This document shows, piece by piece, positions 5,323 through 11,118 of a stretch of DNA of 32,994 nucleotides (position 1 is its first letter; every line of letters begins with the position of its first letter). The DNA comes from Alphaproteobacteria bacterium (GTDB lineage: Bacteria; Pseudomonadota; Alphaproteobacteria; UBA2136; JAPPOO01). The notes below the pieces were generated by a model, which searched no databases, was not told where the DNA came from, and saw only the letters and a list, made by a program, of their open reading frames with translations. The stretch lies in NCBI GenBank assembly GCA_028817875.1, contig JAPPOO010000006.1, positions 1-32,994 of the forward strand, written 5' to 3'. The translations under genes were made by a program, and so were the position numbers.

Positions 5323-5529
5323 TTGGCATCATTCATGCATTTTATTTCGTATCAAATCTTCTGCTTCAATAAAGCGGAAGGTTCGTTAGAGCGATTTACG
5401 GCTTTTATAAAGCTTATTGCTCTAAACAGGTTAGGTATTGTCGCACGCTAATGGGCGTGGGGCAACTTGGTAGCGAATGTAAATTGCTATCAAAAATAAA
5501 TAACAGGTAGTTAAAAGGATTTAAAAAGC

Positions 5530-7218
5530 ATGCAAACACAAATCCCTGCTCAAATTGGTAATGCCCAAGGGCTGTTTAGTGGTTTATTTGGTGGCCAAGT
5601 AGGAGCCAACGGCGCACTGCCCGCAGGGCTGCAAGGGTTGTTTGCGGCATTAGTTGCAGGTAATAAAGCGGGCGAAGGTGACTTAACCTCTCTTCTGCAA
5701 GGAACGCCACTACTTGAAGGAAGTACTGCGCCAGAAGGCTTGCTTTCTAAACTAACTGATGCTCTCGGTAAAATTGATTTTCCTGCTGATTTTGCAGGGC
5801 AGGAGCATATTACTATTAAAGTTGAAACCCTTACGGTTCAACTTCAAGAATTTGTTGTAACGCTGGAAGAGGCGGGTATACCTCCTGTAACAATGGGAAG
5901 CGCTCAGGATCTCGCCGCAGCTTTACACCACCAAGGCATGCCGTTGGCAGATGCACTAAAAGAAGCACAGCGCATTGATGCAGCGCTTAACCATATTCGT
6001 CAAAAATTGGGTTTGGAAGTCACAGATGAATCTTCTTTAGCCCAACTTCCGCTTTCCCTAACTGAGATGGTGAGCACAACCTCACTGACTCAGGCACATA
6101 TTCAAGTTTCTCATGTAAGTATTGAAGTCGGGCAAGTCCAGAGAGGACAACAAATTGCCTTGTTTGATGCTCAGCAAGAGAATGCACCAGTGACGGATCT
6201 TCTTGAAAAAGTGGAAAAACAGCAGCCTTTGGTACGTTTGCCACAGCAAAGTAATCCGCTATCTACTGAGGGGCAGCAAGATAGGCTGGCCGCAGGCGAA
6301 GCTGTTGTGGAAGGTGATGTAGATGGTCTGCTAGAAGAAGCTGTTAAAAGAGAAGGTGTTATTGAAAAAGCTGAAGTTGCAACCCGTACAAATAAAGCTG
6401 GTGAGCTTGTAAATGGTGAGGCTGTGGAAGAGGCTCCTATTATAACTGCACGCCAACGTGTGGGTGAGCACAAAGCGCCCGTTTTTGAATCCAAACCAGT
6501 TTCTAAGCTTGTTGTCGATGTAGCTGAAACAGCGGGGGCTGAGAAAGGTATGCGTGTAGCTTCTGCAGAATTGGCAGATGCACCAGCACCAATTCAAGGA
6601 ACAACAATTTATAAATGGCAAACAACAAAAGTCGGCATGGACGTTGTAACGCAAGTGCAGGAAATACCAAGCCAGTTAGACGGTGCTGATATTGCTATGG
6701 ATATGATGGATGGTGCTGATGTGGATGAAGCTGAAGGGATGGAGCGCCCTGCCGCACCACGCCAAACATTTGCTGAAAAAATGGCATCCTTTGCACGGGC
6801 AGCCAACATTGGTCAACAAACAGCGCCAGCTATGAAAACACTAATTGAGCAAGGGGGTGGGCAAGTACGTTTAACTCTCAACCCTGCTGATCTTGGTGAA
6901 ATTGAAATTGACCTCAAAATTAGAGATGGCCAAGTACAAGGAACAATTGCTAGCCAAAACCCTGAAGTTATTGAGCAATTGGCACGGGAGTTGCAACAAT
7001 TAAAACAAGGTTTGACCGAAGCAGGTTATCAATTGGGTGAAGAAGGTATTGCCTTCCTACTGCAAGATAACGGTGATGGTCAGCAAGGTAACCAACAAGA
7101 TGACGGTACCGACTTAGCTGCAGATGAAGCGTCCGATAGTTCTAACGAACAGGGGGAGGAGGCCATTGCAGCTGAAGGATGGATAAATCCCGACCAGTTG
7201 GTTGATGTAAAAGTTTAA
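5530..7218 (+). CDS. fliK: Flagellar hook-length control protein FliK
   Basis: Long low-complexity N-terminal region and Flg_hook C-domain GGGQVRLTLNPADLGEIEIDLKIRDGQVQGTIASQNPEVIEQLARELQQLKQGLTEAGYQL. SD-like aaaagga upstream. Followed by flgD-flgE. Confidence 0.9.
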   Translation: MQTQIPAQIGNAQGLFSGLFGGQVGANGALPAGLQGLFAALVAGNKAGEGDLTSLLQGTPLLEGSTAPEGLLSKLTDALGKIDFPADFAGQEHITIKVETLTVQLQEFVVTLEEAGIPPVTMGSAQDLAAALHHQGMPLADALKEAQRIDAALNHIRQKLGLEVTDESSLAQLPLSLTEMVSTTSLTQAHIQVSHVSIEVGQVQRGQQIALFDAQQENAPVTDLLEKVEKQQPLVRLPQQSNPLSTEGQQDRLAAGEAVVEGDVDGLLEEAVKREGVIEKAEVATRTNKAGELVNGEAVEEAPIITARQRVGEHKAPVFESKPVSKLVVDVAETAGAEKGMRVASAELADAPAPIQGTTIYKWQTTKVGMDVVTQVQEIPSQLDGADIAMDMMDGADVDEAEGMERPAAPRQTFAEKMASFARAANIGQQTAPAMKTLIEQGGGQVRLTLNPADLGEIEIDLKIRDGQVQGTIASQNPEVIEQLARELQQLKQGLTEAGYQLGEEGIAFLLQDNGDGQQGNQQDDGTDLAADEASDSSNEQGEEAIAAEGWINPDQLVDVKV

Positions 7219-7237
7219 GAGAACGGATAGAAGAGAG

Positions 7238-7948
7238 ATGTCAGTCGAATCAGTCACAAGCAGTTCCGGCGCAATTACCTCCATTGCAGGTGGTGGAGAC
7301 TCCGCAACAGCAAACCTTGGCTTTGATACGTTCTTGAAGCTCCTTGTTACGCAGTTGCAAAACCAAGATCCGTTAAACCCAATGGATGGTACACAGTTTA
7401 CCGAGCAAATGGCAACATTCTCTCAGCTAGAGCAACAAATGCAGACCAATAGCTATTTAGAAGATATTTCAGCCGCGCGGGATTACAGCGCACAAACGCT
7501 GGCAGTTTCCTATATTGGTAAGGAAGCCTTGGTACCTGTAGGTCAAGAATTTGAAAATGCAGCCGTAAGCTTGCCGGAAGATGGCACAGTTGGCTTTGCC
7601 TACACCTTGGCCGATACAGCTTACGATGTACAAATTAAAGTCTTTAACGAAGAAGGTGACCTTGTGCGTCAAGAAACAGGCGATAATTTTGAAGGTGTTA
7701 ACGCTTATGTTTGGGATGGTAAGGATAGTGCTGGAGAACAAGCAGAAGCTGGTATTTACAATGTTGAAATTACAGCTGTCTCTAAAGATGGCGATAAGAT
7801 TGCCCACAGGCTTTACAGCTATGGGGAAGTGGCTGCGGTAGCTGCCGATGGTGCGGGCTCAATTACCTTGAGCCTAAAAGACGGGCGTGAAGCTAATTTT
7901 AATGATGTTTTACAGGTGAAGGATGCGGGTGCATCCACCACTTTGTAG
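7238..7948 (+). CDS. flgD: Flagellar hook assembly protein FlgD
   Basis: FDTFLKLLVTQLQNQDPLNPMDGTQFTEQMATFSQLEQQMQTNSYL is the FlgD N-terminal signature, with a FlgD Ig-like domain following. Confidence 0.96.
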   Translation: MSVESVTSSSGAITSIAGGGDSATANLGFDTFLKLLVTQLQNQDPLNPMDGTQFTEQMATFSQLEQQMQTNSYLEDISAARDYSAQTLAVSYIGKEALVPVGQEFENAAVSLPEDGTVGFAYTLADTAYDVQIKVFNEEGDLVRQETGDNFEGVNAYVWDGKDSAGEQAEAGIYNVEITAVSKDGDKIAHRLYSYGEVAAVAADGAGSITLSLKDGREANFNDVLQVKDAGASTTL

Positions 7949-7984
7949 GAAATAACTTCAGGTAAGAAGGAAGGAGTTCAAGTT

Positions 7985-9655
7985 ATGGGTTTGTTTGGAG
8001 CAATGACAGCGAGTGTGTCTGGGTTGAGTGCTCAGGGGGAGTCAATATCGGTTATTTCCGATAACCTCTCCAACACAAATACAATCGGTTATAAAGCAAG
8101 TCGAGCCTTATTTTCCCAGTTGGTAACAACAGGTGGGTCAGGCGGAACAACGTATAATGCTGGTGGTGCCCAAAGTGATATTACGCGTAACCAAGCGACA
8201 CAAGGGTCTATTATTAGTACAACCAGTGCAACGGACTTATCCCTTTCAGGTAACGGGTTCTTCGTTGTGACGGATAGTGCGAGCATTACAACAGATACAG
8301 CTTATTTCTACACACGGGCAGGGGCTTTCTCTGAAGATAAGAGTGGTTACTTGGTTAACCCATCAGGTTTATATTTACAAGGTTGGCAAACGGATTCAGA
8401 CGGGAATATTTTGAACCTTCAAAACCCGCAGAGTGTTGAGCTACAGTCTGTTGGAGTGTCTGCTCAGGCAACAACAGAAGTAAACGTTGGTGCTAACTTA
8501 ACAAGTACAGAAACAAATAACACAAACTACGATACAACCAGTTCACTGGCGACAGATTTGGGGACGATTATTGCAACCCCAACATTGGCGGATTATGTAA
8601 CGGATGTACGGGTTTATGATGCTCAAGGGGGTGCACGAGATGTATCTATTGCATTCTCAAAACGAGGCGCAAACTTCTGGGATTGGAGCATGTACACAGA
8701 CGGTAGTAATATTGAAGGCGGTACCGCTAATACAAATACATCCATTGGAACAGGAACTGTGCGCTTCAATTTGGATGGTACATTGAAATACGCCACAGGA
8801 ACCTCTCTAACAGTAGATTGGGCTGGTGGTGTTGATGATGGATCAATGACTGGTTACTTTGGAGATTACTCTGGTGGTGGCGTTGTGAGTGCTACAACAA
8901 GTTTAGACTTTACCGACCACGTGCGTGATATTGCGATTGAAGAAGATATTTCTTCAACCGATACAACGGCGCCGACGGGAACTTACACACTTGTGCTTAC
9001 GGCTGCTAATACATGGCAGTTAACAGACCCTAACGGTCAGGTGGATACTCTAACAACCAGTGGTACAGCTGAACAGGAGCTATTATTCCAATTCCCTGGA
9101 GCAGGTGCTGACCGTGAGTACGACGTACGGATGACAGTGAGTAACAGTTTTGCAGTAACAGCAGGTTCTTACCCGTCAACAGTTGGTGACTTCACAGTAA
9201 GTAGTGTTGCTGCGTATGATACCGGTGCTGGTAGTGATGGGGTGATTCAATACGCTGCTAGTTACAATACATCCTTTATTAACCAAAACGGATTTAGTTC
9301 AGGAACACTATCCAACATTCAAGTAGATGAAGAAGGTTTTGTTTCAGGAACATTTACTAACGGTGAAACGAAGAAACTCTGGAAGCTTGCTATCGGTGTG
9401 TTCCAAAACCCAGCTGGGTTGGAAACAGTGAGTGGAAGCTTGCTACGGGTGACTGAATCTTCAGGTCAGGTTCTTTTGAAAGAAGCTGGCGTGGGAAGCA
9501 CTGCATCGGTTGTATCTGGTTCGTTGGAAGGTTCAACGGTGGATATTGCGAACGAGTTTAGTAGCATGATTGTTTCCCAACGGTCATACCAAGCGAACTC
9601 CACAGTGATTTCTACGGTAGACCAAATGTTGAACGAACTTCTACAACTACGATAA
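7985..9655 (+). CDS. flgE: Flagellar hook protein FlgE
   Basis: N-term MGLFGAMTASVSGLSAQGESISVISDNLSNTNTIGYKASRALF and C-term ANEFSSMIVSQRSYQANSTVISTVDQMLNELLQLR. SD aaggaaggag. Confidence 0.96.
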   Translation: MGLFGAMTASVSGLSAQGESISVISDNLSNTNTIGYKASRALFSQLVTTGGSGGTTYNAGGAQSDITRNQATQGSIISTTSATDLSLSGNGFFVVTDSASITTDTAYFYTRAGAFSEDKSGYLVNPSGLYLQGWQTDSDGNILNLQNPQSVELQSVGVSAQATTEVNVGANLTSTETNNTNYDTTSSLATDLGTIIATPTLADYVTDVRVYDAQGGARDVSIAFSKRGANFWDWSMYTDGSNIEGGTANTNTSIGTGTVRFNLDGTLKYATGTSLTVDWAGGVDDGSMTGYFGDYSGGGVVSATTSLDFTDHVRDIAIEEDISSTDTTAPTGTYTLVLTAANTWQLTDPNGQVDTLTTSGTAEQELLFQFPGAGADREYDVRMTVSNSFAVTAGSYPSTVGDFTVSSVAAYDTGAGSDGVIQYAASYNTSFINQNGFSSGTLSNIQVDEEGFVSGTFTNGETKKLWKLAIGVFQNPAGLETVSGSLLRVTESSGQVLLKEAGVGSTASVVSGSLEGSTVDIANEFSSMIVSQRSYQANSTVISTVDQMLNELLQLR

Positions 9656-9689
9656 GAAAGGGTAGATAAAACAAGAGTTTATAAAAGTT

Positions 9690-9912
9690 TGACTCGCCTG
9701 TGTCTGGCGGTGGGAACAGCAGAAAGCTATCTTACCGTCACAGTTGAAAAGCTGCTGATACAGGGCCGACAGTCTCAGTCGGTGCCGGTGGAGGGTTCTC
9801 CCTAATACTCCACAGGACGATCAAAGAGTTACGGCTAGCTGCGTCTCTCTCCCCAAACTTCCTAGCTGGCCGTAAGCCCAAGCCCCTGCAGAAAGCGGGG
9901 GCTAATTCTTTG
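9690..9912 (+). ncRNA. Candidate structured non-coding RNA downstream of flgE (unidentified class)
   Basis: Consecutive helices: CTGTG/CACAG; GGCCGAC agtctca GTCGG(tg)CC; GTGGAG/CTCCAC; TACGGCTAGCT (9830-9840)/AGCTGGCCGTA (9864-9874); AGCCCCTGC-agaaa-GCGGGGGCT (9881-9903) followed by aattctttg. No plausible ORF on +. Confidence 0.55.
9881..9912 (+). terminator. Hairpin ending the candidate ncRNA or flgE transcript
   Basis: 9-bp stem with one G.U pair, 5-nt loop, then aattctttg. Confidence 0.5.
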
Positions 9913-9936
9913 CACAAACCTTCCCATACCCCATGA

Positions 9937-9963
9937 AAAAAGAGCCTCAATAATAAGGCTCTT
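9937..9963 (-). terminator. Rho-independent terminator of the 9974-10336 gene
   Basis: Minus strand reads AAGAGCCT-tattattg-AGGCTCTT followed by TTTT. Confidence 0.8.
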
Positions 9964-9973
9964 CTTCCAACGA

Positions 9974-10336
9974 TTAACTATTCAAGTACTGCTCAGCAGT
10001 GCGAGCGTCCAAAACCAAGTTGTCTTCACCAATGCCAATAATTACCTTATCAATATAATAGATGTTCTTGGAAGGTCTTGCAGTTACAGTCCGTTGCGCA
10101 ACCAATTTAAGAAGGGGTAAGCCGTCCGAGTGAACTTCATTGGTGATGTCATCTGTTTGGTTTAGCGATATCCCAACTTCGTTGCGGCAACAGCCGTTGC
10201 TTCTGACTTCAATTCCCCCGATCAGCACGGTTCGGTTGCCACTGTCCACCACTCTAAAAGTGGTTAAGTATTGAAGATTGCCCAAGTGTTCCCCAACATC
10301 AGCAAAAGAGATTGGTTCTTTTTCAGAATGAGTCAT
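9974..10336 (-). CDS. Hypothetical protein
   Basis: 120-aa ORF with its own downstream terminator; no recognised family. Confidence 0.6.
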   Translation of the reverse strand: MTHSEKEPISFADVGEHLGNLQYLTTFRVVDSGNRTVLIGGIEVRSNGCCRNEVGISLNQTDDITNEVHSDGLPLLKLVAQRTVTARPSKNIYYIDKVIIGIGEDNLVLDARTAEQYLNS

Positions 10337-10415
10337 TTTTACATTTCTCCGTAAAAATTAATAATAAATGATAGTTAGATAAAAATTTGTATACATTAAA
10401 TTGAAAGGCATGTCA

Positions 10416-10447
10416 AAAAAAGACCCCTAGCAATAAGGGTTCTTTTT
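10416..10447 (-). terminator. Rho-independent terminator of the 10453-11118 gene
   Basis: Minus strand AGAACCCT-tattgct-AGGGGTCT-TTTTTT, one mismatch in the stem. Confidence 0.75.
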
Positions 10448-10452
10448 CAAAT

Positions 10453-11118
10453 TTATGCAACAGCGTCCATTTCTTTCATGAGCGTTTCTAGGGCTGCTGC
10501 GGAACCTTCTTTTTTTGTAATATCAGGAACAGCAACAGAAATACCAAGGTAAATACTGTTAATATTTTTTTCTGTTTCCTCACCCAGTGGTAGTGTTTTC
10601 TCTATATTGGCGCAGGTATGTACCAATATACGAAGCGTTGACATAAACTCAGAATGTTCGTCACGGTTAGAGCAGCCAGCATTTCTATCAATCGTTGAGG
10701 AAAATCCTTGCCACGATGCTAAGTTTTGCTCATGAAAGTTCAGAAGGAGATGTCGCACGTCGCCAACAACATCAAGCTGCGGTATATTTTCACCACCCAA
10801 TAGGCTACGCAAAAAGAAGTAAAAAACAGGCGTATAGTCAGAGCCTTCCTTGCACAGCTCTACAAAATGAGTGATGTAACCTTGTTTAGTGTCGGTTTTA
10901 AATTCACCAGCTTTGATAAGGCTGGCAAAAGTAAAAAGCAAGGGGAGGGGGAGTCCGTGGTCTCTACCAACCTTCACAAGTCTTGTTTGTAGGTTGAGGT
11001 CGTCTTGATTTGGCTCAAGCAATCGTTGAAGTTTAGCAATAAAGTTATCTTTACCCCTATTACTTTCATACTTAAAGATGAGGGAGGGAGCTGGTGGTAT
11101 GTTCAGTTTATTGCCCAT
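10453..11118 (-). CDS. Hypothetical protein
   Basis: 221-aa ORF with dedicated terminator; soluble, no recognised family. Confidence 0.65.
   Translation of the reverse strand: MGNKLNIPPAPSLIFKYESNRGKDNFIAKLQRLLEPNQDDLNLQTRLVKVGRDHGLPLPLLFTFASLIKAGEFKTDTKQGYITHFVELCKEGSDYTPVFYFFLRSLLGGENIPQLDVVGDVRHLLLNFHEQNLASWQGFSSTIDRNAGCSNRDEHSEFMSTLRILVHTCANIEKTLPLGEETEKNINSIYLGISVAVPDITKKEGSAAALETLMKEMDAVA

Follow-up and report, generated by a model that had tools for sequence, protein, structure and literature searches.

A CU-loop hairpin kept at either end of a flagellar hook-gene transcript points to a possible undescribed RNA regulator of flagellum assembly in an alphaproteobacterial order

Background

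FlmE (CJnc230) of Campylobacter jejuni is a proven sRNA derived from the 3′ end of the flagellar hook gene flgE; it carries an anti-Shine-Dalgarno motif, is processed by RNase III, and represses flgM and cfiR (PMC11187230). Within the Alphaproteobacteria, the alpha-r14/cuckoo sRNAs (NfeR1, SmelA075/SmelA099) display anti-Shine-Dalgarno loops on variable stems; in these stand-alone RNAs, which are not tied to flagellar operons, CCUCCUCCC recurs in every one of the three or four hairpins (PMC3927594, PMC10746234). A candidate structured RNA named after flg genes, flg-Rhizobiales (RF01736), has been reported from Rhizobiales (PMC2864571), and in Caulobacter FlbT binds the flagellin 5′UTR (PMC3930126).

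The element described here lies in a 32,994-nt stretch of DNA (hereafter the window) from an alphaproteobacterial genome of 1.58 Mb (G000). Like FlmE, it is located directly downstream of flgE, with its central hairpin at 9829–9875 and the end of flgE at 9655, consistent with the flgE 3′UTR location given in a preliminary description of this DNA. FlmE stems from a sigma-54 (RpoN)-dependent hook transcript, and the window's hook operon, with sigma-54-like promoters before fliK and flgD, may depend on sigma-54 too; both elements are structured and have an anti-Shine-Dalgarno motif in an unpaired region. However, the FlmE motif is CCUU, within a 12-nt stretch between two stem-loops, whereas the window has a CU-rich loop atop one stem; FlmE belongs to another phylum, while half of the window's relatives have the hairpin in the fliK leader instead; and FlmE alone has proven processing and targets. 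Sequence homology to CJnc230 is unlikely given the different phylum and motif, and the element would be most like FlmE in its way of working, by analogy and with no sign of common descent.

Variable stems under a conserved anti-Shine-Dalgarno pyrimidine loop, typical of alpha-r14/cuckoo RNAs, are found among the hairpins of the window's order too. The CCUCCUCCC loop motif, however, is absent (the window's loop reads UCUCUCUCCCC, those of relatives CUCUCUCUCC or UUCUCUCCCC), and the window has one CU-loop hairpin, with (U)CUCUCUCC, rather than three or four. Flg-Rhizobiales is likewise an alphaproteobacterial candidate structured RNA, but its covariance model found no match, either at gathering score in the whole window or at E ≤ 5 in 9500–10100. 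By the features tested, the element is a member of neither group. The FlbT system also represents post-transcriptional control of flagellar mRNA in Alphaproteobacteria, but it acts on flagellin mRNA rather than the hook operon, and a CU-loop hairpin is not described in PMC3930126.

The hook operon and its promoters

Pfam identification places a hook operon on the plus strand at 5530–9655, consisting of fliK (5530–7218; Flg_hook), flgD (7238–7948; FlgD), and flgE (7985–9655; FlgE_D2/Flg_bbr_C). A sigma-54-like −24/−12 promoter, TTGGCATCATTCATGCA, precedes fliK at 5323–5339 (+) with one mismatch to the pattern, and another, TTGGCACGGGAGTTGCA, precedes flgD at 6979–6995 (+), towards the 3′ end of the fliK gene; relatives of the same order show the pattern at both places. 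Allowing up to one mismatch, the window holds no third match, but the count is itself weak evidence because 21 of 100 shuffles also reach two. The region after flgE is best explained as the 3′UTR of a hook transcript (fliK/flgD-flgE) driven by sigma-54.

In the window itself, the leader of fliK (5350–5520) is about 190 nt long and contains several strong predicted hairpins, none with a CU loop. On the far side of the operon, a hairpin recognized by eye at 9940–9963 (AAGAGCCT/AGGCTCTT) has a T run behind it on the minus strand and is likely the terminator of a convergent minus-strand gene at 9974–10336; this is one of two convergent genes (120 and 221 aa) on the minus strand at 9974–11118, for which no Pfam match was returned at E ≤ 0.01.

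Structure of the region after flgE

The preliminary description had proposed a structured RNA, read from the plus strand, in the gap after flgE (9690–9912). GC content is indeed raised there (56% at 9700–9899, against about 41–48% around it), and the reported lack of a convincing plus-strand ORF was borne out: a small protein was rejected as the product of the gap, the sole plus-strand candidate of at least 20 aa being a 38-aa TTG frame. The plus strand of 9690–9912 folds with a minimum free energy of −94.4 kcal/mol, as compared with −73.1 ± 4.3 for shuffles (z = −4.96; 0 of 200 as good). The z score of the minus strand is −1.0, and the argument for plus-strand orientation from G.U pairs therefore holds. 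Rfam gave no match for the whole window at gathering score, nor for 9500–10100 even at E ≤ 5, and the preliminary description had likewise not recognized it as 6S, SRP, RNase P, tmRNA, or a common riboswitch.

Folding of the 5′ half alone (9694–9819; z = −3.56, 0 of 200 shuffles as good) predicts a three-way junction at 9697–9764 (+), with an outer stem (9697–9704/9757–9764) and hairpins at 9705–9740 and 9741–9754, followed within 9765–9816 (+) by two more hairpins (9765–9770/9778–9783 and 9788–9793/9808–9813). The core of the region is a CU-loop hairpin at 9829–9875 (+), with counterparts in relatives of the order. Its stem, first drawn as 11 bp (9830–9840/9864–9874), is present and slightly longer, with 12–13 bp and an internal G.U pair (9829–9841/9863–9875; z = −3.45 alone). 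The exposed loop carries the anti-Shine-Dalgarno-like motif UCUCUCUCCCC (9844–9854, +), common to the hook-operon hairpins of relatives, so that the pyrimidine-rich loop singled out at the outset proved to be the conserved feature. TCTCTCYCC occurs twice, overlapping, within this loop, against a chance expectation of 0.21 matches per whole window. A terminator-like stem (9881–9889/9895–9903; z = −3.18 alone) follows as originally proposed, extending with its tail over 9881–9911 (+), though the tail, AATTCTTT, is just a weak T-run. A DNA-level search of G000 identified no further copies of the element.

Distribution among relatives

Comparison was made by gene position, from collected flgE orthologs, because the comparison covered relatives outside the window's own family and a DNA search of 60 relatives yielded no match. 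Hairpins were scored by a mechanical criterion: a pyrimidine run of at least 8 nt containing TCTC and TCC, in a 12–34 nt loop closed by at least seven consecutive pairs, at least four of them G-C. A CU-loop hairpin was found in the fliK-flgD-flgE operon of all 16 assessable genomes of the window's order, with one copy per operon by this strict criterion; G007, whose contig ends inside the loop, and G012, with no clear flgE ortholog, lie outside the count. By the same criterion, 2 of 57 flgE downstream regions sampled outside the order passed, both with loops unlike the element, as did 26 of 2018 background windows (300 nt each), a figure that includes real copies. Since the criterion was drawn up with the hairpins already known, this outside and background contrast outweighs the 16/16 count.

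The position after flgE held in 8 of the 16 genomes (G000, G002, G003, G004, G005, G006, G008, and G017), while the other eight (G001, G009, G010, G011, G013, G014, G015, and G016) carry the hairpin in the fliK leader. Many flgE orthologs are followed directly by the CU-loop hairpin and then by a terminator-like stem, as in G003, where the hairpin reads GTTGCGGCCGGAA[TGTTTCTCTCCCCCTAACAGCC]TTCTGGTCGTAAC. Leader copies, exemplified by G014 (AACGGTGCAGGGCT..CTCTCTCTCC..GGCCCTGCACTGTT), begin about 2–3 nt past the start expected from the −12 element of the predicted sigma-54 promoter in the seven that were aligned; no terminator able to release a separate sRNA is visible in them. The leader copy of G010 is a variant within a larger branched fold, and G016 has a weaker CU hairpin after flgE in addition to its leader copy.

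Pattern and model searches found the hairpin solely in the window's order. A covariance model built from the fliK-leader hairpins (R1) gave strong matches at fliK within the order only; its remaining matches across the class (E ≥ 0.0037 per genome, 386 genomes) were treated as chance. In the nearest outside relative (G196, L218), CCTTCTCTCTCCCCCC stands directly after flgE and before a strong terminator, without a surrounding hairpin, and TATCTCTCCTC occupies the same place after flgE in L009; G075 has neither.

Covariation

Automatic alignment put the arms in the wrong places (A1, A2, and A4), and the stems were therefore trimmed by hand. In the flgE-3′ set, the loop core was unified, G006 lost a one-base bulge, rows sharing the same arms were collapsed into one, and the 3′ copy of G016, whose inner stem is uncertain, was omitted. 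The covariation counts lean towards structure as a consequence of these trimming, unification, and row edits, and related sequences can exceed shuffles even without structure. With this caveat, the fliK-leader stems (7 sequences, 14 pairs) are paired in 98% of cells, with 14 cells changed on both sides as compared with a shuffled mean of 6.3, and have a covariation score of 0.531 against 0.281 for shuffles (0 of 500 as high). The flgE-3′ stems, window included (6 distinct sequences, 8 pairs), are 100% paired; six of the eight pairs are changed on both sides and the score is 0.700 against 0.401 (0 of 500 as high). Slid controls fell far lower in both sets. A conserved structured RNA is very probably present after flgE, with conservation attaching to the covarying CU-loop hairpin and not to the whole 223-nt fold as first outlined.

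The leader and flgE-3′ hairpins may constitute one family, a view based on their shared loop, similar GGCTGG/CCAGCC arms, common operon, and complementary distribution rather than on a joint alignment; R1 gives no score to the flgE-3′ copies.

Search for trans targets

The suggestion that the loop pairs with Shine-Dalgarno sequences was not supported: a swap test on 68 loop/start-region pairs gave loops from the matching genome no advantage over exchanged ones (p = 0.32). The flgF core alone gave p = 0.037, as one of twelve tests and not significant after correction, and complementary sites in the window's own genome showed no excess over a reversed-pattern control. The best single match in the window's genome, GGAGAGAGACGC, lies directly before the start codon of a BBP2_2 outer-membrane porin gene (L030 1501–1517; G000 C74:2331–2347) that adjoins a UDP-glucose-dehydrogenase-like gene, and complements the window loop GCGUCUCUCUCC perfectly over 12 nt. 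This porin was rejected as a target, the match not being kept in orthologs of relatives, and it may reflect chance.

In G005 (L140 1783, 2560, 3823; L292), GGAGAGA ribosome sites precede flgC, flgF, flgG, and flgH, and flgA has GGGGGGGG; all are complementary to that genome's own CU loop. GGAGAGA-type sites were rejected as general targets, as the G005 pattern does not hold across genomes of the order.

Possible function of the hairpin

Computational analyses establish a plus-strand hairpin with covarying arms, restricted to the hook operon and lying either downstream of flgE or at the start of the fliK transcript; its retention at one end or the other suggests an RNA regulator of flagellum assembly that is as yet undescribed. 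We tentatively favor, at somewhat less than even confidence, a modular regulatory RNA that rides on the sigma-54 hook transcript and acts in trans through its CU loop in the manner of FlmE. The hairpin would be made whenever the hook genes are transcribed, its loop would base-pair with purine-rich, Shine-Dalgarno-like stretches of other mRNAs, the window's copy would act after release as a 3′UTR-derived sRNA, and some flagellar or surface genes would thereby be translated in step with the hook stage. Exposed on a stable stem and produced as part of the hook mRNA, the CU loop resembles an anti-Shine-Dalgarno seed, and the position independence of the hairpin within one operon fits a trans product. 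Counting against this reading are the lack of a conserved target, the leader copies without a visible terminator, and the window's weak T-run; since the target tests failed (the 68 pairs, the own-genome sites, and the unconserved best match), it rests on architecture and precedent.

A role in cis on the hook mRNA is a close rival and nearly as likely. A protein or GA-rich RNA would bind the CU loop as a docking or stability element, working from either end to set decay, translation, or localization of the transcript. In every case the hairpin belongs to this one operon, close to the extreme 5′ or 3′ end and present in a single strict copy, and no trans targets were found; moreover, the binding of FlbT to Caulobacter flagellin 5′UTRs shows that in this class flagellar mRNA can be controlled by a protein (PMC3930126). 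However, no convincing GA-rich partner hairpin occurs among the CU/GA sites checked, and the 5′ copy is too distant from the fliK start codon for direct blocking.

An element acting at the level of DNA, for instance a palindrome bound by an activator of the sigma-54 promoters, is very unlikely. The leader copies are inverted repeats adjoining a sigma-54 promoter, but their arm sequences change together, the asymmetric CU loop is conserved rather than the arms, folding is strand-specific, and the copies after flgE adjoin no such promoter; hairpins that begin at about +2/+3 of the predicted sigma-54 start, as those in the leader do, fit an RNA rather than a DNA binding site. Equally improbable is an ordinary terminator plus chance structure after the operon, for although a terminator-like stem is present and the 5′ half (9694–9819) has no homolog among the relatives searched, the CU hairpin is distinct from that stem, recurs, covaries, and also appears in the fliK leader, where no terminator would be expected, so that this explanation is largely excluded for the hairpin but may hold for 9694–9819.

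If the trans reading is correct, a second, unrelated bacterial lineage would have hook genes whose transcription sends out an RNA signal of its own, suggesting convergent evolution of hook-stage RNA regulators. Its fullest form, a hook-riding CU-hairpin family that moves between 5′ and 3′ ends with function kept and signals the assembly stage in trans, as an independently evolved alphaproteobacterial counterpart of FlmE, is a more speculative possibility. A cis role would instead imply that an as yet unknown regulator recognizes CU loops in alphaproteobacterial flagellar mRNA. The exchange between 5′ leader and 3′ end in one operon would be an unusual, testable case of a regulatory RNA for which the carrier transcript matters and position does not.

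Two further observations concern possible partners and flagellar mRNA control. In G003 (L109, about 5500–5560), a second hairpin, GTTACCTGACGGGAGAGACAGGTAAC, lies just upstream of the CU hairpin; its loop, GGGAGAGA, is an exact complement of the CU loop, making it a possible kissing partner or sponge. The window's genome, in which a fliW gene (Pfam FliW, E = 8e-22) carries a GGAGAGA ribosome site (L308; G000 C5:9453–9467), may also use CsrA-FliW control of flagellar mRNA.
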